Assembly (NCBI RefSeq): GCF_031882575.1
Contig: NZ_CP134772.1
Coordinates: forward strand, 142,001-206,000
Direction: 5' to 3'
Length of the DNA stretch: 64,000 nucleotides
Origin: Pseudomonas sp. VD-NE ins
GTDB lineage: Bacteria > Pseudomonadota > Gammaproteobacteria > Pseudomonadales > Pseudomonadaceae
The position numbers and the translations under genes were made by a program. Numbering within the stretch: position 1 is the first letter of the stretch; every line of letters starts with the position of its first letter. The notes beneath the pieces are model-generated. The model did not search any database, was not told the origin of the DNA, and saw only the letters and a program-made list of their open reading frames with translations. Of this stretch, positions 1-11,032 are shown one piece after another.

Positions 1-3000
1 TCATCCCGTAGCGAGCAAAGACACCCACGGCCAGGCTGATGCCACGCCGGCGGCCAGCCCGGTCGCGGTGCCCGGCCAGAGTGTGGTGTTCGTCGACTCA
101 CGGGTGAAGGATGCCGACAGTCTGCTGCAAGGCATTGCTCCCGGCACGCAAGTGGTGAAACTCGACGCCAGCAAGGATGGTTTGCAACAGATCGCCGACT
201 TCCTTGATCAGCATCACGGCGTCAGCTCGGTGCAGATCATTGCCCACGGCAATGCCGGTGATTTGTGGCTGGGCAACAGTTATCTCTCGGCAGACAACGT
301 CGCCCAGCGCAGCGCGGTCCTCGCGGAAATCGGCAAGGACATGAACGCTGGCGGCGACATCCTGATTTACGGCTGCTACACCGCTGAAGGTGATCGTGGC
401 TTGATTTTTGTCGACTCGCTGGCGCAACTGACCGGGCGTGACGTGGCTGCTTCGAACAATCGCACCGGTGTCGGCGGCGACTGGGATCTGGAGATCGCCA
501 CCGGCACCATCGAAAGCGCCAACGTGCTCTCGAGCAAAGCCATGAGCGAGTACCAGTGGGGCCTCGCCACCTGGACGGCGACCAACAACCTCAACTCGGG
601 TGTCGGCTCGTTGCGCGCGGCGCTGGCTTCGGCGCAGAACGGCGATATCGTCACGTTCAGTTCGGGCATGACCGTTCAGCTCACTTCGGAGCTGCTGATC
701 AACAAGAACATCACCGTCGATGGCGACCTGAACAACGATGGCGTGGCCGACGTGACCCTCGATGGCCAGTACAAAACCCGCGTGGTGGAAGTCACCTCCG
801 GCAGCACCGTGACCCTCGACGGCTTGGTGATCACCAAAGGTCTGGTCGCCGGCAACGGTGGTAATGGCGGCTCGGCGGCGGTGGGCGCCATGGGCGGCGG
901 CATTTTCAACGCCGGCATTCTTACCCTGAACAACGTCACCGTGACCGCGAACGCCGCTTCCGGCGGTGGTGGTGGCGGGGGTGTGACCGGCGGTTATGTC
1001 GGCGGTGGCGGTGGCGGCGGTGCGGGTATCGGTGGCCAGACCGGTGGCCATGGCGGTACCTCCGGCCCGGGCACCGGCACTTATGCCGGGGGCGCAGGCA
1101 GTGCCAATGCTGGCGGTTATGGCGGCGGTTACAGCCCGACCGACATGGGCGGCCGTGGTGGCACCAGCACCGGTGGCGTGGGTGGCAACGGTGGCAGCGC
1201 CGGTGCCGGTTACAGTCATGGCGGCAATGGTGGTTCGGCGAGCAACGGCACGCTGTCGATTGGCGGCGGCGGCGGTGGTTCCGGCTGGGACAAAGTCGGC
1301 GGCGTCGGCGGTAATGCGGCCGGCGGTATCTATAACGCTGCGAGCGGCACCCTGAAAGTCATCGGCACCTCGGTCATCAGCAATAACATTGCTGCCGGCG
1401 GCGGCGGTGGTGGTGGCGGCGGGGTCGGCAGCAACGGTGCCGATGGCGGTGCCGGCGGTCGCGGCGTCGGGGCGATCTGGAACAACGGCGGTGTGGTGCT
1501 GATCACCGCGAGCAACTTCGCCGCGATCAGCGGCAACGGCGCCGCCAGCGGTGGCGGTGGTCTTTCCAACGGTGGTTCGACCGGCACGACGCCGAGCGCA
1601 CTGGTGGGGATCTACAACAACGGCGGCACCCTCAATACTGCTTACGTGGAACCGCCGACCGCCACCATCGTGGTCGCCGACACCGCGCTGAAAATCGGCG
1701 AAACCTCGCTGGTGACCATCACCTTCAGCCGCGCCGTCAACGGTTTTACCAACGCTGACCTGACCATTGCCAACGGCACGCTGAACAATGTGTCCAGCGC
1801 CGACGGCGGTATCACGTGGACGGCGACGTTTACGCCGACCAACAACATCACTGACACCACCAACCTCATCACCCTCGATAACACCGGGGTGACGGCGGTG
1901 TCCGACAGCGTGGCAGGCGTCGGCACTACCAACTCCAACAATTACGTCATCGATACTCAGCGACCGACCGCAACCATCGTGATGGCAGACACTGCCCTGA
2001 AAATCGGCGACACCTCGCTGGTGACCATCACGTTCAGCGAGGCAGTGAGCGGTTTCACCAACGCCGACCTGACCATTGCCAACGGTACGCTGACCAACGT
2101 CAGCAGCGTCGACGGCGGCATCACCTGGACGGCGACGTTCACCCCGACCGCGAGCATTACCGATGCCACCAACCTGATTACCCTGGACAACACCGGGGTG
2201 GCGGATCTGGCCGGCAACGCCGGCAGCGGCACCACCGATTCAGCCAATTACGCGATCGACACCGTGCGTCCGACCGCCACGATTGTGGTTGCCGACAACG
2301 CGCTGAATCTCGGCGAGACGTCGTTGGTGACCATCACCTTCAGCGAAGCGGTGAGCGGCTTCACCGCCGCCGACCTGACGGTGGCCAACGGCACCTTGAC
2401 CGGACTGAGCAGCAGCGACGGCATCACCTGGACGGCAACCTTTACGCCGAACAGCAGCACCACCGACGCGACCAACCTGATCACCCTGAACAACACCGGG
2501 GTTACGGATCTGGCCGGCAACACCGGTACCGGCACTACCGATTCCAACAACTATGCGATCGATACGCTACGGCCGACGGCAACCATCGTGGTCGCCGACA
2601 CTGCGCTGAAAATCGGTGAAACCTCGCTGGTGACCATCACCTTCAGCGAGGCGGTGAGCGGCTTCACCAACGCAGACCTGAGCATTGCCAACGGCACGTT
2701 GAGCGCTGTCAGCAGCGCGGATGGCGGCATCACCTGGACGGCGACGTTCACGCCGACCAGCAGCATCACTGACGCCACCAACCTGATCACCCTGAATAAC
2801 ACCGGGGTCGCCGATCTGGCGGGCAACACCGGCGTCGGTACCACTGATTCCAACAATTACGCGGTCGACACCGTGCGGCCGACCGCCACCGTGGTGTTCG
2901 CGCAAAACACTTTGAAAATTGGCGATACCTCGCTGGTGACCATCACCTTCAGTGAAGCGGTGAGCGGTTTCACCAACGCCGATCTGACCATCGCCAACGG

Positions 3001-6000
3001 CACCCTGACGGCGGTCAGCAGCGCGGATGGCGGGATTACCTGGACGGCGACGTTTACGCCGAGCGCGAACATCACCGATGCCACCAATCTGGTGACACTG
3101 GACAACACCGGCGTCGCCGACCTGGCCGGCAACGCTGGCAGCGGCACCACCGATTCGAACAATTACAGCATTGACACCCAGCGGCCGACCGCAACCATCG
3201 TCATGGCCGATCCTGCCCTGAGCGCCGGCGAAACCTCGCTGGTGACCATCACCTTCAGCGAAGCGATCAGCGGTTTCACCAACGCCGACCTGACCGTCCC
3301 CAACGGCACGCTGACGGCGGTCAGTACTGCGGACGGCGGCATTACCTGGACGGCGACGTTCACGCCGACCGTGGCGATCAACGACAGCACCAACGTCATC
3401 ACCCTGGCCAACGCCGGGATCGCTGACCTGGCCGGGAACGCCGGCACGGGCACGACCAACTCCGGCAACTTCACCATCAACACGGTGGCGCCAACCGCCA
3501 CCATCGTCGTCGCGGACAACAGCCTGACCATCGGCGAAACGTCGCTGGTGACCATCACCTTCAGCGAAGCCGTGAGCGGTTTCAACAACGCCGACCTGAC
3601 AATTGCCAACGGCACGCTCAGCGCAGTGAGCAGCAGCGACGGCGGCATTACCTGGACGGCGACCTTCACGCCGACCAGCAACATCACCGACGCCTCCAAC
3701 CTGATCAGCCTCGACAACAGCGGCGTGCAAAACGCCTCCGGCAACGCCGGTAACGGCACCACCGACTCAAACAATTACGCCATTGATACCCAACGCCCGA
3801 CCGCGACCATTGCACTCGCTGACTCGGCATTGAGCATCGGCCAGACCACCACCGTGACCATCACTTTCAGCGAGGCGGTGAGCGGTTTGACTCTGGCCGA
3901 TCTGACCGTGGCCAACGGCACGCTCTCCGGATTGAGCACGTCGGACAACATCACCTACACGGCGACGTTTACGCCGTCGGCGGGCATCACCGACACCAGC
4001 AACATCATCACCCTGGACAACACCGGCATCACTGACGTGGCGGGCAACTCCGGCAGCGGCACCACCGACTCGGGCAACTACGTGATCGACAACCAGCGCC
4101 CGACTGCAACCATCGTGATCGCCGACCCGACTCTGAGCGCCGGTGAAACCTCGTTGGTGACGATCACCTTCTCCGAGGCCGTGACGGGGTTCACCAACGC
4201 AGATCTGACCATTCCCAACGGCACAATGACCGCTGTCAGCAGCAGCGACGGCGGCATCACCTGGACAGCGACGTTCACGCCGACCGTCGGGGTCAACGAC
4301 ACCAGCAACATCATCACCCTTGCCAACACCGGTATCGCTGACCTGGCCGGGAACGCTGGCACGGGCACGACCAACTCCGGCAACTTCACCATCAACACCG
4401 TGGCGCCAACCGCGACCATCGTCGTCGCGGACAACAGCCTGACCATCGGCGAAACGTCGCTGGTGACCATCACCTTCAGCGAAGCCGTGAGCGGTTTCAA
4501 CAACGCCGACCTGACGATTGCCAACGGTACGCTGACGGCGGTGAGCAGCAGCGACGGCGGTATCACCTGGACGGCGACCTTCACGCCGACCAGCAACATC
4601 ACCGACGCCTCCAACCTGATCAGCCTCGACAACAGCGGCGTGCAAAACGCCTCCGGCAACGCCGGTAACGGCACCACCGACTCAAACAATTACGCCATTG
4701 ATACCCAACGCCCGACCGCGACCATTGCACTCGCTGACTCGGCATTGAGCATCGGCCAGACCACCACCGTGACCATCACTTTCAGCGAGGCGGTGAGCGG
4801 TTTGACTCTGGCCGATCTGACCGTGGCCAACGGCACGCTCTCCGGATTGAGCACGTCGGACAACATCACCTACACGGCGACGTTTACGCCGTCGGCGGGC
4901 ATCACCGACACCAGCAACATCATCACCCTGGACAACACCGGCATCACTGACGTGGCGGGCAACTCCGGCAGCGGCACCACCGACTCGGGCAACTACGTGA
5001 TCGATAGCCAGCGCCCGACCGCCACGATTGTCATCAGTGACACCGATCTGCGTCCCGGCGAAACCGCCCTCGTCACAATCACTTTCAGCGAGGCGGTCAC
5101 GGGCTTCGACAATTCCGACCTGAGCGTTGCCAACGGCACGCTGAGCAACGTCTCGTCGAGCGACGGCGGCATCACCTGGACCGCCACGTTTACCCCGACC
5201 ATTGGCCTCAGCGATGCCACTAACCTGATCGTGCTGAACAACTCAGGCATCAGCGATCTGGCCGGCAATGCGGGCATCGGCATCACCAACTCGGCCAACT
5301 ACGCGGTGCAGACCGAAGTGCCGACCGCGACCATTGTCGTCGCGGATACCGCGCTCAAGGCCGGCGAAACCTCGGCGGTGACCATCACCTTCAACGAGGC
5401 GGTCAGCGGTTTCACCAACGCGGATCTGACCATCGCCAACGGCACCCTGAGCAATGTGGCCTCCAGCGACGGTGGCATTACCTGGACCGCTACGCTGACG
5501 CCGACCGCCAACATCACCGACACCAGCAACCTGATCACCCTCGACAACAGTGGCGTAACCAACGCTTCTGGCAACGGTGGCGTCGGCACCACCGATTCGA
5601 ACAATTTCGCCATCGACACGGCGTTGCCGACCGCAACCATTGTGGTCGTCGACAATCGCCTGGGCATCGGTGAAACCACCACGGTCACTATCACTTTCAG
5701 TGAAGCAGTCAGCGGTTTTGACCTGTCGGACATCAGCGTTGCCAACGGCACACTGGCGAACCTGACCAGCAGCGACGGCGGCATCACCTGGACCGCCACG
5801 CTGACGCCGACGGCGAACGTCAATGACACCACCAACCTGATCATCGTCGACACCGCCGGTGTGCAGGACCTGGCCGGCAACCTTGGCGCCAGCATCGCCA
5901 TCTCTAACAACTACGCGCTGGATGCGACCCGGCCAACGGTGGACATCGTGGTCGCCAATTCGCACTTGGGCATCGGCCAGACCACCACGGTGACCTTCAC

Positions 6001-7126
6001 TTTCAGCGAGGCGGTGAGCAATTTCGACTTGTCTGATCTGAGCGTGACCAACGGTGATCTGAGCAACCTCAGCAGCAGCGATGGCGGCAAGACCTGGACG
6101 GCGACGTTCACGCCGACCGCAAATATTACCGACCCAAGCAACTTCATTGCGCTGGACACCAGCAACGTCACGGATCTGGCCGGTAACGTCGGCAGCACGG
6201 TGGCGGTGTCGAACAACTATGCGCTGGACAGCGAACGGCCAACGGCGACGGTGGTGATTGCCAATCCGAATCTCGGTCTCGGCCAGACCTCACAGGTGAT
6301 CATCACCTTCAATGAGGCGGTCAGCGGTTTTGATCTGGCGGACATCAATGTTGGCAATGGCACCTTGTCCAACCTGAGCAGCAGCGACGGCGGCAAAACC
6401 TGGACCGCGACCCTGACGCCGAATGCCAACGTCAACAGCGCCAGCAATGCCATCAGCGTCAACAGCGCCGGGGTCAGTGATCTGTCCGGCAACAGTGGCA
6501 GCGGCATCAGCAGCTCGAACAATTACGCGATCAACACTGTGCCGCCAGTCGTTCCACCAACGCCGCCCACTACGCCAACCAGTGTGGTTATTCCCGATCC
6601 ACTGATTCGCAGCAGCGACCCGGTGGTGCCTCCACCGCCACCAAGCTTGCCGCTGCAACCGATCATCTTCACCGCGCCGACCGGCGACCTCGGCTCCCCG
6701 CTGACCTTCGCGCCGCTGTTCGAGCAACGGGTGATCGGCAATGGCATCCGTCCGCTGGGCGATATTTTCATCAATCACGGTGCCCTCAGCCGCAGTTACA
6801 TCGCGCAAGTGTTCAGCAGCAGCGACAGCGGCGGTGATGGATCCGGTCACGGCTTCCTCGGTTTTGGCGGGGGTGACGGCGGCGTGTTCGGCAGCAGCAC
6901 ACTGGCGGGCCTGTTCAATCAGGACAGTGCCGCCGAGCGCGATTCATTGAACGCGTTCGGCAGTCAGTCACTCAAGGCGGGGGATGTTTCGCAAGGCCTG
7001 CGTGGCGTATTTGGCGCGCCGACGCTGGGCCAGCAACTGCAACAACTCAAAGACAACGAACAGCACCGGGTCGACAACCTGGCGGCAGCACTGCAACAGG
7101 TCGGCATCAGCGAAATATCGGCCTGA
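1..7126 (+). CDS. Giant secreted adhesin with DUF4347 and 16 Ig-like repeats (5' end outside window)
   Basis: The reading frame is open from base 2, so the true start lies upstream; a GTG at 68 is only internal. At least 2,374 codons are visible. Order: a DUF4347 domain (bases about 80-560, with IIAHGNAGDLWLG and ILIYGCYT), typical of the N-terminus of large secreted pseudomonad proteins; a right-handed beta-helix-like, extremely glycine-rich part (about 570-1640); 16 tandem Ig-like repeats of about 102 residues (1651-6540), each starting (P)TATIVVAD and carrying TFSEAVSGF and TWTATFTP; then a proline-rich linker and a C-terminal part of about 200 residues. I see no RTX nonapeptides. The following gene is a TolC-type channel, which suggests type I secretion; the ABC and membrane-fusion genes would lie upstream. 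Likely role: surface adhesion or biofilm matrix protein (inference). Confidence 0.85.
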   Translation, partial: HPVASKDTHGQADATPAASPVAVPGQSVVFVDSRVKDADSLLQGIAPGTQVVKLDASKDGLQQIADFLDQHHGVSSVQIIAHGNAGDLWLGNSYLSADNVAQRSAVLAEIGKDMNAGGDILIYGCYTAEGDRGLIFVDSLAQLTGRDVAASNNRTGVGGDWDLEIATGTIESANVLSSKAMSEYQWGLATWTATNNLNSGVGSLRAALASAQNGDIVTFSSGMTVQLTSELLINKNITVDGDLNNDGVADVTLDGQYKTRVVEVTSGSTVTLDGLVITKGLVAGNGGNGGSAAVGAMGGGIFNAGILTLNNVTVTANAASGGGGGGGVTGGYVGGGGGGGAGIGGQTGGHGGTSGPGTGTYAGGAGSANAGGYGGGYSPTDMGGRGGTSTGGVGGNGGSAGAGYSHGGNGGSASNGTLSIGGGGGGSGWDKVGGVGGNAAGGIYNAASGTLKVIGTSVISNNIAAGGGGGGGGGVGSNGADGGAGGRGVGAIWNNGGVVLITASNFAAISGNGAASGGGGLSNGGSTGTTPSALVGIYNNGGTLNTAYVEPPTATIVVADTALKIGETSLVTITFSRAVNGFTNADLTIANGTLNNVSSADGGITWTATFTPTNNITDTTNLITLDNTGVTAVSDSVAGVGTTNSNNYVIDTQRPTATIVMADTALKIGDTSLVTITFSEAVSGFTNADLTIANGTLTNVSSVDGGITWTATFTPTASITDATNLITLDNTGVADLAGNAGSGTTDSANYAIDTVRPTATIVVADNALNLGETSLVTITFSEAVSGFTAADLTVANGTLTGLSSSDGITWTATFTPNSSTTDATNLITLNNTGVTDLAGNTGTGTTDSNNYAIDTLRPTATIVVADTALKIGETSLVTITFSEAVSGFTNADLSIANGTLSAVSSADGGITWTATFTPTSSITDATNLITLNNTGVADLAGNTGVGTTDSNNYAVDTVRPTATVVFAQNTLKIGDTSLVTITFSEAVSGFTNADLTIANGTLTAVSSADGGITWTATFTPSANITDATNLVTLDNTGVADLAGNAGSGTTDSNNYSIDTQRPTATIVMADPALSAGETSLVTITFSEAISGFTNADLTVPNGTLTAVSTADGGITWTATFTPTVAINDSTNVITLANAGIADLAGNAGTGTTNSGNFTINTVAPTATIVVADNSLTIGETSLVTITFSEAVSGFNNADLTIANGTLSAVSSSDGGITWTATFTPTSNITDASNLISLDNSGVQNASGNAGNGTTDSNNYAIDTQRPTATIALADSALSIGQTTTVTITFSEAVSGLTLADLTVANGTLSGLSTSDNITYTATFTPSAGITDTSNIITLDNTGITDVAGNSGSGTTDSGNYVIDNQRPTATIVIADPTLSAGETSLVTITFSEAVTGFTNADLTIPNGTMTAVSSSDGGITWTATFTPTVGVNDTSNIITLANTGIADLAGNAGTGTTNSGNFTINTVAPTATIVVADNSLTIGETSLVTITFSEAVSGFNNADLTIANGTLTAVSSSDGGITWTATFTPTSNITDASNLISLDNSGVQNASGNAGNGTTDSNNYAIDTQRPTATIALADSALSIGQTTTVTITFSEAVSGLTLADLTVANGTLSGLSTSDNITYTATFTPSAGITDTSNIITLDNTGITDVAGNSGSGTTDSGNYVIDSQRPTATIVISDTDLRPGETALVTITFSEAVTGFDNSDLSVANGTLSNVSSSDGGITWTATFTPTIGLSDATNLIVLNNSGISDLAGNAGIGITNSANYAVQTEVPTATIVVADTALKAGETSAVTITFNEAVSGFTNADLTIANGTLSNVASSDGGITWTATLTPTANITDTSNLITLDNSGVTNASGNGGVGTTDSNNFAIDTALPTATIVVVDNRLGIGETTTVTITFSEAVSGFDLSDISVANGTLANLTSSDGGITWTATLTPTANVNDTTNLIIVDTAGVQDLAGNLGASIAISNNYALDATRPTVDIVVANSHLGIGQTTTVTFTFSEAVSNFDLSDLSVTNGDLSNLSSSDGGKTWTATFTPTANITDPSNFIALDTSNVTDLAGNVGSTVAVSNNYALDSERPTATVVIANPNLGLGQTSQVIITFNEAVSGFDLADINVGNGTLSNLSSSDGGKTWTATLTPNANVNSASNAISVNSAGVSDLSGNSGSGISSSNNYAINTVPPVVPPTPPTTPTSVVIPDPLIRSSDPVVPPPPPSLPLQPIIFTAPTGDLGSPLTFAPLFEQRVIGNGIRPLGDIFINHGALSRSYIAQVFSSSDSGGDGSGHGFLGFGGGDGGVFGSSTLAGLFNQDSAAERDSLNAFGSQSLKAGDVSQGLRGVFGAPTLGQQLQQLKDNEQHRVDNLAAALQQVGISEISA
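1651..6540 (+). repeat. 16 tandem Ig-like repeat units inside the adhesin gene
   Basis: Sixteen coding repeats of about 303-306 bp. Each opens with a PTATIVVAD-like strand and ends near SNNYAIDT. Two three-unit stretches are almost identical at DNA level: bases 3421-4089 recur at 4336-5004, an offset of exactly 915 bp with only scattered differences. The other units are more diverged. This suggests a recent duplication or gene conversion within an old array. Confidence 0.9.
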
Positions 7127-7172
7127 ACCAACCATTACTCAACACTGTGCGGGACCTAGGGGCGATCCAGGG

Positions 7173-8690
7173 ATGAAGAGAAGTCAGAAGTTGTTCGGCG
7201 CCAGCCTGCTGGCGCTGGCGATCAGCGGATGTGCAGTGACCAGTGAACCGATTGAGCGCAGCGTCAGTGAACAGCGTGCCAAAAGCGATCTGCAAGGCAT
7301 GTACAAGGATCAGGAACCGCTGCGCGGCCCGTTGACCCTGCACCAGGCCATGGCCCGCGCCGTGAAGTACAACCTCGAAGGCCGCTTGAAGATCATGGAG
7401 GAAGCGCTGGCCAAGCGGCAGCTCGACCTCGCCAGTTTCGACATGCTGCCGCGCATGGCGCTGGACGCCGGCTACGTCGGGCGCAACAACGTCAACGCCT
7501 CCAGCAGCCAGAGCGTACGCACCGGCACCCAGTCTCTGGAACCGTCGACTTCGCAGGATCGTGACCGCGAAGTCGCCGACCTGACCATGGTCTGGAACGT
7601 CCTCGACTTCGGCGTCAGCTATATCAGCGCCAAACAGCAGGGTGACCAACGCCTGATCGTCCAGGAACGGCGCCGCAAGGTGATCAACACCATCGTTCAG
7701 GACGTGCGCTCGGCCTATTGGCGGGCGATGGCCGCCGAACGTCTGCTCAAGCAGATCGACAGCCTGATGGCGCGAGTGCAGACCGCCCGCGACAACAGCC
7801 AGACCCTGAGCGACCAACGCATTGGCGATCCGGTGCAATCGCTCGGTTACCAGCGCTCGTTGATCGAAGCCACCCGGCAACTGGAAGAACAGCGCCGTGC
7901 CTTGTCGCTGGCGAAAACCGAACTGGCGACGCTGATCAACTTGCCGCTGGGCACCCCTTTAACCTTGGCCACCGATGACGGTTATCAGATTCCTGAGCTC
8001 AAGGTCGATCTGGCCAAACTCGAACAGGAAGCCCTGACCAGTCGCCCGGAACTGCGTGAACAGGATTACCAGACGCGCATCAGCGCCGCCGAAACCCGCA
8101 AGGCCATGTTGCGCTTGCTGCCAGGCCTTGAGTTTTCTGCTGGCGGCCACTACGACAGCAACTCCTTCCTTGTCGAGCAGGGCTGGGCCGACTATGGCGT
8201 GAAAGTCACCTGGAACCTGTTCAACGTGATCTCCGCTCCGGCGGCGATCAACGTCGCCAAGGCCGGCGAAGAAGTGGCCACTGCGCGGCGACAAGCAATG
8301 TCGATCGCGGTGCTCGCGCAGCTCTATGTGGCCAACGCCAACTATCAAGAAGCCATGCGTCAGTTCAAGACCAATCAACAACTGTCGGACATCGACGGGC
8401 AAATCGTCGGTCAATTGCGCAACCGTCATCAGGCGGCCGGGATCGGTGAGCTGGAACTGATTCAAGGCGAGCTGAACAACCTGCAAGCGGACCTGCGCCG
8501 CGATCTGTCGTACGCCGATCTGCGCAATGCCTACGGCCAGATCTTCGCCAGTGCCGGCCTCGATCCGCTGCCGGATCAGGTGCAGTCGACCGAAGTGCAG
8601 TCGATCGCCACCGCGCTGGCCAACCGCGAGTCGGCGTGGGCGTCGGGGGATATTTCGGTGCCGGTGGTGGCGCATGCCCCAGCGCAGTGA
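7173..8690 (+). CDS. TolC-family outer-membrane lipoprotein of a type I secretion system
   Basis: The protein has 505 residues. It starts with a lipoprotein signal (MKRSQKLFGASLLALAISGC, lipobox ISGC, acylated Cys at position 20) and then shows the alternating coiled-coil and strand pattern of the OEP/TolC family, with two repeats (a motif such as LTLHQAMARAVKYN early, SRPELREQ at mid-length). It would form the outer-membrane exit duct. The gene begins 46 bp after the adhesin stop, and the next gene starts inside its last codons, so all look co-transcribed. The natural cargo is the adhesin (inference from position). The start at 7173 was chosen because it gives the complete lipoprotein signal; the open frame upstream only overlaps adhesin coding sequence. 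Confidence 0.88.
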   Translation: MKRSQKLFGASLLALAISGCAVTSEPIERSVSEQRAKSDLQGMYKDQEPLRGPLTLHQAMARAVKYNLEGRLKIMEEALAKRQLDLASFDMLPRMALDAGYVGRNNVNASSSQSVRTGTQSLEPSTSQDRDREVADLTMVWNVLDFGVSYISAKQQGDQRLIVQERRRKVINTIVQDVRSAYWRAMAAERLLKQIDSLMARVQTARDNSQTLSDQRIGDPVQSLGYQRSLIEATRQLEEQRRALSLAKTELATLINLPLGTPLTLATDDGYQIPELKVDLAKLEQEALTSRPELREQDYQTRISAAETRKAMLRLLPGLEFSAGGHYDSNSFLVEQGWADYGVKVTWNLFNVISAPAAINVAKAGEEVATARRQAMSIAVLAQLYVANANYQEAMRQFKTNQQLSDIDGQIVGQLRNRHQAAGIGELELIQGELNNLQADLRRDLSYADLRNAYGQIFASAGLDPLPDQVQSTEVQSIATALANRESAWASGDISVPVVAHAPAQ

Positions 8691-9279
8691 TGTGCTGGCG
8701 CCCAGCGCCAGCATCAGCCGCACGCAACGCGAGGCCCGCAATGGTCATCGGGGTGCGGCGATCCTCCTGACCGGTTTGCCGGCGGCAGGCAAATCGACAT
8801 TGGCGCAAGCGCTGCAGGCCACGCTGTTCGGGGATGGTTGGCAAAGTGTGGTGCTCGATGGCGACAGTTTGCGTACCGGACTCAACCGGGATTTGGGCTT
8901 CAGCGATGCCGATCGCCAGGAAAACATTCGCCGCGCCAGCGAACTCGCGGCGCTGCTGGTGGACAACGGGCAAATCGTGATTCTGGCGATGATTGCGCCG
9001 TTGGCCGAGCTGCGTGAGGTGTTTGCGCAACGCTTGCGGGACGACTATCGCGAAGTCTGGTGCAACGCGTCACTGGCGGTGTGCGAGCAGCGTGATCCGA
9101 AAGGGCATTACGCCCGCGCCCGACGCGGCGACTTGCCCGGGTTTACCGGCGTTTCCGCGCCCTACGAGCCGCCGGCGCAACCGTCATTGGTGCTCGACAC
9201 CGGCGCGCAAACGGTGGAAGCCTGCCTTGATCGATTGCTGACTTGGCTCGGCGAGTGCGCGGTGTTGCCCAGGACATGA
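8674..9279 (+). CDS. Adenylylsulfate (APS) kinase, CysC type
   Basis: The 201-residue protein makes PAPS from APS and ATP. Visible features are the P-loop GLPAAGKST, the APS-binding stretch LDGDSLRTGLNRDLGFS, QENIRR, and the C-terminal CEQRDPKGHYARARRGDLPGFTG region, all diagnostic of CysC. The family's phosphorylatable Ser in the F-I-S-P motif reads M-I-A-P here, that is, Ala. The ATG overlaps the end of the TolC-like gene by 17 bases, and the stop overlaps the next start (ATGA). Pseudomonads usually reduce APS directly and already carry a CysNC fusion, so a separate kinase inside a secretion operon points to PAPS supply for sulfation by the sulfotransferase two genes downstream (inference). 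Confidence 0.9.
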   Translation: MPQRSDVLAPSASISRTQREARNGHRGAAILLTGLPAAGKSTLAQALQATLFGDGWQSVVLDGDSLRTGLNRDLGFSDADRQENIRRASELAALLVDNGQIVILAMIAPLAELREVFAQRLRDDYREVWCNASLAVCEQRDPKGHYARARRGDLPGFTGVSAPYEPPAQPSLVLDTGAQTVEACLDRLLTWLGECAVLPRT

Positions 9280-10061
9280 GCCGGCCGGCGTTCTCGCGTT
9301 TGCCGGTGACGGTGGATTTGCCGCTGTTGCTGCAAGCGCTGGCGGCGATTGCCGACGACGCCTGGCGCAGTCACTTCAACACCGAGTATTTCTCGGGTGA
9401 CTGGAGTGGCGTCGCGCTGATTTCGGCAGCCGATGCGTTGACCGAACTGTCGCCCGGTCGCGGTGAGCCGTTGCTACGCGAACCGTGGTTGCGTGATGAG
9501 CGCTGGCGCCACGGCTTGCGCAATCTGTCGCTGAATATCGTCAGCGCTCGACTGCTGCGCCTGGGTCCTGGCGCGCGCGTTCACGAACATCGCGATTACG
9601 ATCTGAATGGCCCGGACGCCGATCGCCGTTTGCACATTCCGTTGCTCAGTCCGCCCAATGTCGACTTCTGGCTCGACGGCCAACGCGTGCCGATGGCCGC
9701 AGGGGAATGCTGGTTTCTCGATCTCGCCCGTCCGCACCGAGTGGATAACCGCGATACTTCTGCGCGTATTCATCTGGTTATCGATTGCAAACCCGATGCC
9801 TGGCTTGAGCAGATGATCGTCGAAGGATTGCCCGACACACCAGCGCCGGGTTTGGCCGATACCGACTTGCAGCGCTTTCAAAGGCTGGTGACTGAGGATG
9901 ACTCGCTGTCACTGGCCTTGCGCACGCTGCATGACCCTGAGGTGTTTATCGCCCGAACGCTGGAACTCGCGGCGGAACGCGGCTTGGTATTTTCTCGCGA
10001 AGAACTGCGTACCGCGATGCGCAATGGTCGGCGGCAATGGAACGAACAATGGTGCGGTTGA
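9276..10061 (+). CDS. Aspartyl/asparaginyl beta-hydroxylase-like Fe(II)/2-oxoglutarate oxygenase
   Basis: The protein has 261 residues. The central domain matches the aspartyl/asparaginyl beta-hydroxylase family: LRLGPGARVHEHRDYDL supplies the HxD-type metal ligands, and a distal His lies in the LARPHRVDN motif, followed by RIHLVIDCK. Such enzymes hydroxylate Asp or Asn side chains; some bacterial relatives act on other substrates. It starts at the ATGA overlap with the APS kinase, and its stop lies 25 bases inside the sulfotransferase gene, so the three are almost certainly translationally coupled. The C-terminal 80 residues are not recognised. Substrate unknown; the adhesin or another product of the operon is a guess from context. 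Confidence 0.78.
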   Translation: MSRPAFSRLPVTVDLPLLLQALAAIADDAWRSHFNTEYFSGDWSGVALISAADALTELSPGRGEPLLREPWLRDERWRHGLRNLSLNIVSARLLRLGPGARVHEHRDYDLNGPDADRRLHIPLLSPPNVDFWLDGQRVPMAAGECWFLDLARPHRVDNRDTSARIHLVIDCKPDAWLEQMIVEGLPDTPAPGLADTDLQRFQRLVTEDDSLSLALRTLHDPEVFIARTLELAAERGLVFSREELRTAMRNGRRQWNEQWCG

Positions 10062-11032
10062 GTTTCGACGGTTGGCTGCCCATTCGTGTCTGGCCGGTCG
10101 ACGGGCAGTGGCGGGTGGATTGGTGCTGGTTCGGTGAGGCACCGCTGCATCAGCCGTTTTTCCGTGAGGCGGTGGACGATGCACTGCGGCTGCCCTTCAA
10201 TCAGGCGTTTCGACGGCAGACGCCGCTGTCGGCGCTGACCGAATGGCAAGCGCAAAGCCCCGGCCTCGCACCAAGCGCTTTTATTCTGCACGCCTCGCGC
10301 TGTGGCTCGACGTTGATCAGTCAGATGCTCGCGCAGCTTGACGATCACATCGTGGTGTCGGAACCGCCACCGCTGGACGCACTGTTGCGCAACGAATTGC
10401 CTGCCATCGAACGCCGGGCGGTGATCACTGGATTGCTCTCGGCTTATGGTCAGCGCCGGCGCGGTATTGAACAGCGTTTAGTGGTCAAACTCGATGCCTG
10501 GAACATCGGTGAATGGCCGCTGTTGCAGACCTGTTTCCCGGACACGCCGTGGCTGTTTCTCTATCGTGACCCGCTGGAAATTGCTGTTTCCCATCTGCGC
10601 CGTCCGGGTATGCACATGGTGCCGGGAATGCTCGGTGATTGCGTGTTGGAGGATGGTTTGCCGTTTGAAGGGCGTGAAGATTTTATCGCGCGGCGTTTGG
10701 GGCGGTTGTTGGAGGCGGGGTTGCTGCATTGTCGGGATTCGGCCGGTTTGGCGGTGAATTACAGCGAGTTGCCCGATGCGATGGCTGGGCGCTTGGCGCG
10801 ATTCTTTCGATTGAATGATGTGCAGACTCAGCAGGTGTTTGCCGCTGCCGCGCAGCATGCGAAACAGCCTTCGCAAGTGTTTTTTGCCGATGGTGAAGAC
10901 AAACGCCGCGAGGCTTCGGCGCTGTTGCAGGAACGTGTGCGCACTTTTGCGCTAGCACCATTTGAAGCCCTGGAAGAATTGCGCGGCATTCAAAAGATCG
11001 CAGCCTGCGGCAGGTCCTACATTGAAATGTGA
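10037..11032 (+). CDS. PAPS-dependent sulfotransferase family protein
   Basis: The protein has 331 residues. After an N-terminal region of about 80 residues it shows the 5'-phosphosulfate-binding loop ILHASRCGSTLISQML and the 3'-phosphate-binding stretch LFLYRDPLEIAVSHLRRPG, the two signatures of PAPS sulfotransferases. It is cytoplasmic by appearance, with no signal peptide. It probably transfers sulfate from the PAPS made by the upstream kinase to a protein, sugar or small-molecule acceptor. It is the last gene of the adhesin operon. Its final 13 residues are encoded by the left arm and loop of a REP palindrome, so the tail may be variable between strains. An ATG at 10049 is an alternative start. 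Confidence 0.82.
   Translation: MERTMVRLSFDGWLPIRVWPVDGQWRVDWCWFGEAPLHQPFFREAVDDALRLPFNQAFRRQTPLSALTEWQAQSPGLAPSAFILHASRCGSTLISQMLAQLDDHIVVSEPPPLDALLRNELPAIERRAVITGLLSAYGQRRRGIEQRLVVKLDAWNIGEWPLLQTCFPDTPWLFLYRDPLEIAVSHLRRPGMHMVPGMLGDCVLEDGLPFEGREDFIARRLGRLLEAGLLHCRDSAGLAVNYSELPDAMAGRLARFFRLNDVQTQQVFAAAAQHAKQPSQVFFADGEDKRREASALLQERVRTFALAPFEALEELRGIQKIAACGRSYIEM

Follow-up and report, generated by a model that had tools for sequence, protein, structure and literature searches.

The window analysed here, a stretch of 64,000 nucleotides from the 6.70-Mb, single-contig genome of Pseudomonas sp. VD-NE ins (NZ_CP134772.1, positions 142,001 to 206,000), opens inside a larger locus that encodes a giant adhesin, exporter proteins and sulfation enzymes. 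The host is presumably a soil bacterium. Two genes of the window encode a Fe(II)/2-oxoglutarate oxygenase (HYD; 9276..10061, + strand) and a sulfotransferase (ST1; 10037..11032, + strand) that would use 3′-phosphoadenosine-5′-phosphosulfate (PAPS); both most likely act on MDPB, a phage-tail-collar protein encoded upstream of the window, while the adenosine-5′-phosphosulfate (APS) kinase encoded next to them would belong to a second sulfation module by the adhesin. The favoured reading, which can be given a probability slightly above one half (about 0.52), is that of a composite surface-protein locus in which a first module (A) serves the adhesin and the HYD-ST1 pair (module B) modifies the C-terminal Arg-Asn of MDPB.

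Genes were delimited as mechanical open reading frames (ORFs) ranked by codon-position GC, and features upstream of the window are given in coordinates of the locus record L002, from which window coordinates are obtained by subtracting 18000. MDPB (L002:14339-14926, − strand) is a protein of 195 amino acids with a collar domain (PF07484, 91 bits), and its name presumably comes from microcystin-dependent protein (MdpB). It forms a cassette with a GNAT acetyltransferase (L002:13380-13931, + strand; Acetyltransf_1, 35 bits) and a DUF6916 protein (L002:13974-14285, − strand), the profile match of the latter, 25.6 bits, being slightly below the cut-off of 27. The DUF6916 and MDPB genes lie on the opposite strand, amid + strand genes.

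The connection between the pair and MDPB is carried by the last residue of the collar protein. In a first set, 55 of 57 MDPBs accompanied by HYD-ST1 have Asn as their last residue, versus 12 of 53 without it. A prediction written beforehand and applied to unseen loci, with HYD status taken from a 20-kb region for those of the genus, gave 12/12 versus 3/13 (p=1e-4). When the sets are pooled, terminal Asn is found in 67/69 proteins with the pair versus 15/66 without it, and the difference is seen both within Pseudomonadaceae (56/58 versus 4/16) and outside the family (11/11 versus 11/50 proteins). Statistically, the association of HYD-ST1 with the Arg-Asn end is thus established at the level of the sequences. 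Genome G951, which carries HYD-ST1, was dropped from the counts because the frames of both its collar genes (L256:10275-11485) appear broken in this assembly. Three further genomes with no MDPB in the region (G929, G925 and G904) were kept out of every count; one of them, G929, carries ST1, and no search aimed at its collar genes was made.

The signal lies at the very end of one protein. Among 174 well-filled columns of the MDPB alignment, the last is the most strongly associated with HYD-ST1 (p=8e-21, versus 2e-10 for the next). The same scan, applied as a control to GNAT, DUF6916 and the exporter proteins TolC, M50 and HlyD1 (36-72 genomes each, TolC and M50 being scanned over their C-terminal 300 residues), yields peaks of 1e-4 to 2e-6, compared with 2e-15 for MDPB at one copy per genome (90 genomes). 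The last residues of GNAT, DUF6916, TolC, M50, HlyD1 and the adhesin are associated at p=0.001 (TolC) or more weakly. On an MDPB tree built from the best-scoring copy per genome, with the last six residues excluded and midpoint rooting, dependence of terminal Asn on HYD-ST1 gives a likelihood-ratio test (LRT) value of 47.5, or 48.8 in a finer fit, versus 15.0 for Arg at position -2 and at most 6.5 at eight other sites. The p-values of this tree test and of the independent-pairs test below are rough since the trees are quick ones and the LRT also depends on midpoint rooting. Other collar residues were considered as a signature of HYD-ST1 and rejected, being far weaker in both the column scan and the tree test.

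Genomes in which the pair is displaced or missing are also instructive. In G129 and G075 (L069 and L084), HYD-ST1 is encoded apart from the adhesin locus, and their MDPBs are still Asn-ended; taken more widely, the MDPBs of G075, G129, G750 and G866, where the pair is not beside the cassette, have this ending. Pseudomonads that have MDPB and ST2, the second sulfotransferase of the locus, without HYD have probably lost the pair, as suggested by their place among loci having it. In these genomes MDPB ends in PHD (G004), SRS (G100), SRG (G020) and SRD (G941, from the sister genus), and in SRN in G113 and G945, the MDPB of G113 being 96% identical to one from a pair-bearing genome.

HYD matches PF05118 with 50.2 bits for a gathering cut-off of 22.6, and a relative in L076 reaches 67.6. 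Its closest solved relatives are proline hydroxylases, the nearest being L-proline cis-4-hydroxylase (4p7w, E 5e-17), with which H105, D107, H154 and R164, invariant in 11 sequences, can be aligned. The first three are presumably the iron ligands of the HxD...H site and R164 the 2-oxoglutarate-binding Arg. Like the PF05118 oxygenases, HYD has an aligned iron site followed by a downstream Arg; unlike them, the Pseudomonas HYDs are fused to a C-terminal Nif11-like domain and paired with ST1. This domain occurs in many Pseudomonas relatives among the best 120 of 608 matches (8000 candidates), and one may speculate that it binds a partner. Proline hydroxylases of PF05118 act on proline as a free amino acid, and the family also includes lipid A hydroxylases.

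ST1 is a weaker profile match. It scores 23.8 bits against the Pfam sulfotransferase profile, for a gathering cut-off of 27; the L076 relative passes at 29.9 and that of L068 has no match, and many relatives among the best 120 of 1353 matches (8000 candidates) bear a precomputed PF13469 assignment. R88, E109 and S185, the putative PAPS-site residues, do not vary in alignments of 11 and of 21 sequences. An excerpt of PMC6637879 gives the rule for PAPS sulfotransferases as an Arg in one PAPS motif, a Ser in the other and a His or Glu base between them. From their spacing and context, R88, E109 and S185 would be the residues concerned.

The pair is also found outside Pseudomonadaceae, in a sample of 398 genomes of the phylum where its presence was read from the ST1 profile (E 1e-15), HYD status in the Chromatiales locus L068 being taken from the fetched locus. 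Seven ST1 stretches of 12-20 kb, some reaching a contig end, were recovered (L068 and L101-L106). HYD adjoins ST1 in six; in L104 there is only a weak, distant, partial match, and the locus of G724, whose HYD match is partial and distant, was counted by its ST1. MDPB, GNAT and DUF6916 are near ST1 in four stretches (L068, L103, L104 and L105). The pair stands alone in the other three; two of the genomes concerned (G866 and G750) have DUF6916 and a collar protein elsewhere, and the third, G517, has no such match. Across the phylum, DUF6916 is found in 44/398 genomes and accompanies ST1 (9/10 genomes with ST1 versus 35/388 without, p=1e-8), also when only genomes outside Pseudomonadaceae are considered (5/6 versus 34/375, p=5e-5). 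DUF4347, the family of the adhesin, shows no association with ST1 in the same sample (4/10 versus 91/388, p=0.20) and is found in 0/6 ST1 genomes outside Pseudomonadaceae; none of the seven stretches yielded the adhesin itself. In a class sample of 369 genomes, ST1 occurs solely in the window's own genome.

Taken together, these distributions place HYD-ST1, as module B, with the tail-collar cassette of MDPB, GNAT and DUF6916. HYD would act first, adding a hydroxyl within the C-terminal Arg-Asn-COOH of MDPB, most probably on the Asn; ST1 would next sulfate that new hydroxyl, ahead of the presumed arrival of MDPB at the surface. This order is suggested by the constant pairing of the two enzymes, and a substrate with a free carboxylate would suit HYD, given that its family handles a free amino acid; a literature search on proline hydroxylase structures yielded nothing usable about how the carboxylate is bound. 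As chemistry, hydroxylation and sulfation are plausible. A more specific version can be put forward only tentatively, namely that the tandem is a new bacterial modification system that reads a free -Arg-Asn-COOH and caps a surface-fibre or adhesin-tip protein with sulfated hydroxyasparagine. To our knowledge, documented cases of protein sulfation in bacteria are rare. Among the articles listed by searches of the open PubMed Central literature, hydroxylation followed by sulfation of a C-terminal residue was not met, and no article was found joining the tail collar with microcystin-dependent protein or with these enzymes. Since the handle offered by the MDPB end is a single residue, the question of the substrate can be put to a direct test and, if the proposal is correct, the tail-collar/GNAT/DUF6916 cassette, which is often beside very long ORFs, would gain a possible function.

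Several observations weigh against this reading. Among the 66 MDPBs without the pair, 15 are Asn-ended. G517 (98% complete, 110 contigs) has the pair and no DUF6916 or collar-domain match. In G148, only one of three MDPBs has the Asn end; the one-copy-per-genome tests take the third copy of G148, which ends in Asn, and leave out the other two. The independent-pairs test, restricted to supported branches, is borderline (median p 0.06 and 0.03): 5-6 of 9-10 pairs go in the expected direction, about four show no difference and, in nearly all pairings, none is opposite. The kin of HYD hydroxylate proline, and the Pro at position -4 of MDPB is unvarying with respect to HYD (68/69 versus 63/66), so that this residue, considered as a discriminating site because of that kinship, had to be rejected. 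No signal peptide is evident by eye in MDPB, which bears on the proposed surface route. For ST1, a search of solved structures with 11 sequences returned no relative at E up to 1, and with 21 sequences only three marginal short matches (E 0.37-0.45). As for module A, 16 of the 37 uncut ST2 loci (those not cut inside the adhesin gene) have no local APS kinase, meaning that ST2 does not require one, and a Tyr-sulfation signature sought in the adhesin was not found, acid-flanked Tyr showing no enrichment in the adhesins of ST2 loci.

The pair could instead have another target, such as a glycan, a lipid, a small molecule or an unlinked protein, alongside whose modified product the Arg-Asn subtype of the collar protein would work. 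The pair-bearing G517, in which the collar cassette was not found, the Asn-ended MDPBs without the pair and the breadth of PF05118, which covers both proline and lipid A hydroxylases, all lean in that direction. This explanation is nevertheless rather unlikely, since a direct match between enzyme and substrate accounts more simply for a signal restricted to the final residue, or final two, in a single protein, and since the Asn end is also kept in G075, G129, G750 and G866, away from the pair.

The modular reading rests further on the way genes are nested in pseudomonad loci. In a genus sample of 149 genomes, a genome-wide search (E 1e-10) finds HYD in 39. Among 36 named HYD loci, 35 are from Pseudomonas, many of them presumably of the fluorescens group, and one is from a Chromatiales metagenome-assembled genome; ST1 is present in 36/36, and adhesin and TolC in 33, the exceptions being L065, L066 and L068. 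The comparison of gene content covers 59 loci, from 57 genomes of the genus and two of a sister genus; Fisher tests use 56 of them, G113, G020 and G075, which are cut inside the adhesin, being left out. HYD and ST1 occur as a pair in 39/59 loci and are jointly missing from 20/59, the latter including G075 and G129, where the pair is elsewhere in the genome and which the MDPB counts score as having it. MDPB and GNAT are present in all 39 HYD-ST1 loci, and the 7 of 56 uncut loci that lack both also lack HYD. The APS kinase is found in 21/59 loci, every one with ST2 (21/21), and its presence shows no association with that of HYD (17/39 HYD loci and 4/17 without HYD, p=0.23). A PMT-like glycosyltransferase follows the same rule (24/59 loci, 24/24 with ST2), and in 39/39 loci having ST2 its gene immediately precedes that of the adhesin, on the same strand. 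A minimal locus consisting of HlyD1, HlyD2, M50, adhesin and TolC, with none of the other set, occurs in G091, G013 and G026. The nested presence of these genes defines two separable modules added to a minimal exporter locus.

The initial annotation had taken the five genes at the start of the window (adhesin, TolC, APS kinase, HYD and ST1) as a single operon making PAPS locally to sulfate, and perhaps hydroxylate, the adhesin or a linked surface molecule. Eight more genes of the locus, among them the second sulfotransferase, lie upstream of the window and were outside its view. The five genes are intact, and their positions, their common direction and the overlaps of 17, 4 and 25 bases between TolC, kinase, HYD and ST1 are confirmed. 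The adhesin-linked export locus with PAPS-making and sulfotransferase genes is likewise real and conserved: of the 39 genomes of the genus that have HYD, 37 carry it inside the M50/adhesin locus, linkage to the adhesin being probable in three of them (G082, G034 and G078), where the locus is divided between two contigs, each terminating in the adhesin gene. The proposed refutation, modification genes found mostly apart from the adhesin, does not hold inside the genus; in the seven stretches of 12-20 kb outside Pseudomonadaceae no adhesin was found. The premise that an additional kinase has no evident use except sulfate transfer is only partly correct: the source genome holds two other APS kinase genes (G000:C1:4736095-4736541 and 1062597-1063037), one of which, in a 635-aa frame, probably corresponds by its length to the expected CysN-CysC fusion.

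A single unit of kinase, oxygenase and ST1 that hydroxylates and sulfates the giant adhesin during export is improbable and was set aside as the main account. The tight operon with overlapping genes speaks for it, as do the 37/39 HYD loci that sit with adhesin and exporter and the co-occurrence of HYD with the M50 orthologue (37/39 HYD genomes versus 18/110 others, p=5e-19); even in the two remaining HYD genomes, G065 and G148, a divergent M50 orthologue is nearby. However, the kinase follows ST2 and not HYD, which means that the supposed unit consists of two modules overlapping in this genome, and HYD-ST1 follows the collar cassette. Moreover, the adhesin was not found in the seven stretches (12-20 kb) outside Pseudomonadaceae and DUF4347 shows no association with ST1, the last residue of the adhesin shows none with HYD (p=0.23, 28 and 14 genomes), and 18 of the 55 genus genomes with the exporter (M50) orthologue have no HYD. 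Finally, it is very improbable that the link between terminal Asn and HYD-ST1 is an artefact of shared ancestry. In favour of this view, pseudomonads make up most of the sampled pair-bearing genomes, the outcome of the independent-pairs test is borderline and the tree tests use one quick tree. Against it, the last column stands apart in the LRT (47.5, the other sites reaching at most 15), the link persists outside Pseudomonadaceae, and in four of the six HYD-less pseudomonads with ST2 and MDPB the collar protein has another last residue.

In module A of the favoured reading, ST2, with or without PMT and APS kinase, would draw on PAPS made locally to sulfate the adhesin or a glycan of the adhesin. 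ST2 (L002:16896-17741, + strand) is a TPST-like sulfotransferase (Sulfotransfer_3, 60.5 bits) whose nearest solved chains are human tyrosylprotein sulfotransferases (TPSTs), the best match, to TPST1, being weak (E 2e-5). Given this weak relation and the lack of a Tyr signature in the adhesin, the substrate of ST2 may be a glycan of the adhesin or another molecule. The PMT-like gene lies at L002:15144-16745 (+ strand; PMT_2, 43 bits). The APS kinase, which would make PAPS (8674..9279, + strand), is well above the equivalog cut-off of TIGR00455 (apsK; 204 bits versus 138.7) and also matches PF01583 (177 bits).

The adhesin (DUF4347/Big_12, 2442 aa) occupies positions 1..7126 of the window on the + strand. 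Its frame is open at the left edge, the first 203 bp lying outside with the ATG at L002:17798, 57 bp past ST2, and the stop is at 7126. The N-terminus reads MWWSIFGG...LEPRMLFDGA and includes the LEPRMLFDGA motif; DUF4347 matches with 177-178 bits and Big_12 in 16 stretches. The TolC-family outer-membrane lipoprotein follows at 7173..8690 (+ strand; PF02321, 127 bits) and has a lipobox-like start. Adhesin, TolC, kinase, HYD and ST1 all start with ATG and stop with TGA. In G128 (L139), the adhesin frame is apparently broken into two ORFs, next to ST2 and TolC.

Upstream, all on the + strand, lie HlyD1 (L002:9233-10012), HlyD2 (L002:10009-11328), the HlyD_3 profile giving 73 and 51 bits for these HlyD genes, and a fusion of Peptidase_M50 and HlyD (L002:11329-13425). 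Together with TolC they provide both an HlyD-type adaptor and a TolC-type channel, and a profile scan of the locus proteins finds no ABC transporter or ATPase family. From their domains, these proteins probably form an exporter that carries the giant DUF4347/LEPR-XLL adhesin. The M50 orthologue is present in 55/149 genomes of the genus. The open PubMed Central literature returned no article joining DUF4347 with adhesin, sulfotransferase with adhesin, or beta-hydroxylase with type I secretion. The available portion of PMC8277102 describes no M50 peptidase exporter.

Partial analogues of the locus are known. In the RaxX-RaxSTAB system of Xanthomonas, RaxST sulfates a peptide of 60 residues on Tyr-41, RaxAB being its exporter, with PAPS provided by core genes, according to an excerpt of PMC6637879. 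In both cases a sulfotransferase is encoded with secretion genes, PAPS is the donor (here by prediction) and modification precedes export (here again by prediction); the nearer analogue of the tyrosylprotein sulfotransferase RaxST would be ST2, through its weak TPST match. The present locus differs in its local APS kinase, its giant adhesin, its separate oxygenase-sulfotransferase pair and the absence of any ABC family, hence of a RaxB-type component, among its proteins. Similarly, the phage-tail-collar proteins of PF07484 share with MDPB (195 aa) the collar domain, but MDPB belongs to a conserved GNAT-DUF6916 cassette. Type I secretion of LapA-like adhesins involves HlyD adaptors, TolC and a giant adhesin with Ig-like repeats. 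All three are found in the locus, but its inner-membrane part is apparently the M50-HlyD fusion and it has no ABC ATPase gene.

The collar cassette is also seen in other settings, in long stretches fetched for the DUF6916 genomes of the phylum sample, 10 of the 44 being left out. In other Proteobacteria, MDPB, GNAT and DUF6916 lie beside very long ORFs (L229-L231, L237-L241, L245 and L247). Five of these ORFs were scanned: those of L230, L237, L238 and L241 have surface-type domains, whether Ig-like, cadherin-like, propeller or autotransporter, while that of L229 has no domain match. In L105 the cassette adjoins a lasso-peptide-like set (AsnB-like cyclase, PqqD-like and HprK-like proteins) whose profile matches are all under the curated cut-offs; judged by eye, such a set also accompanies the cassette in L103, L235 and L244, and an additional sulfotransferase-like ORF is present in L103, L105 and L235. 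Next to the Chromatiales cassette with HYD-ST1, a collagen-repeat protein (PF01391) is encoded at L068:1-690.

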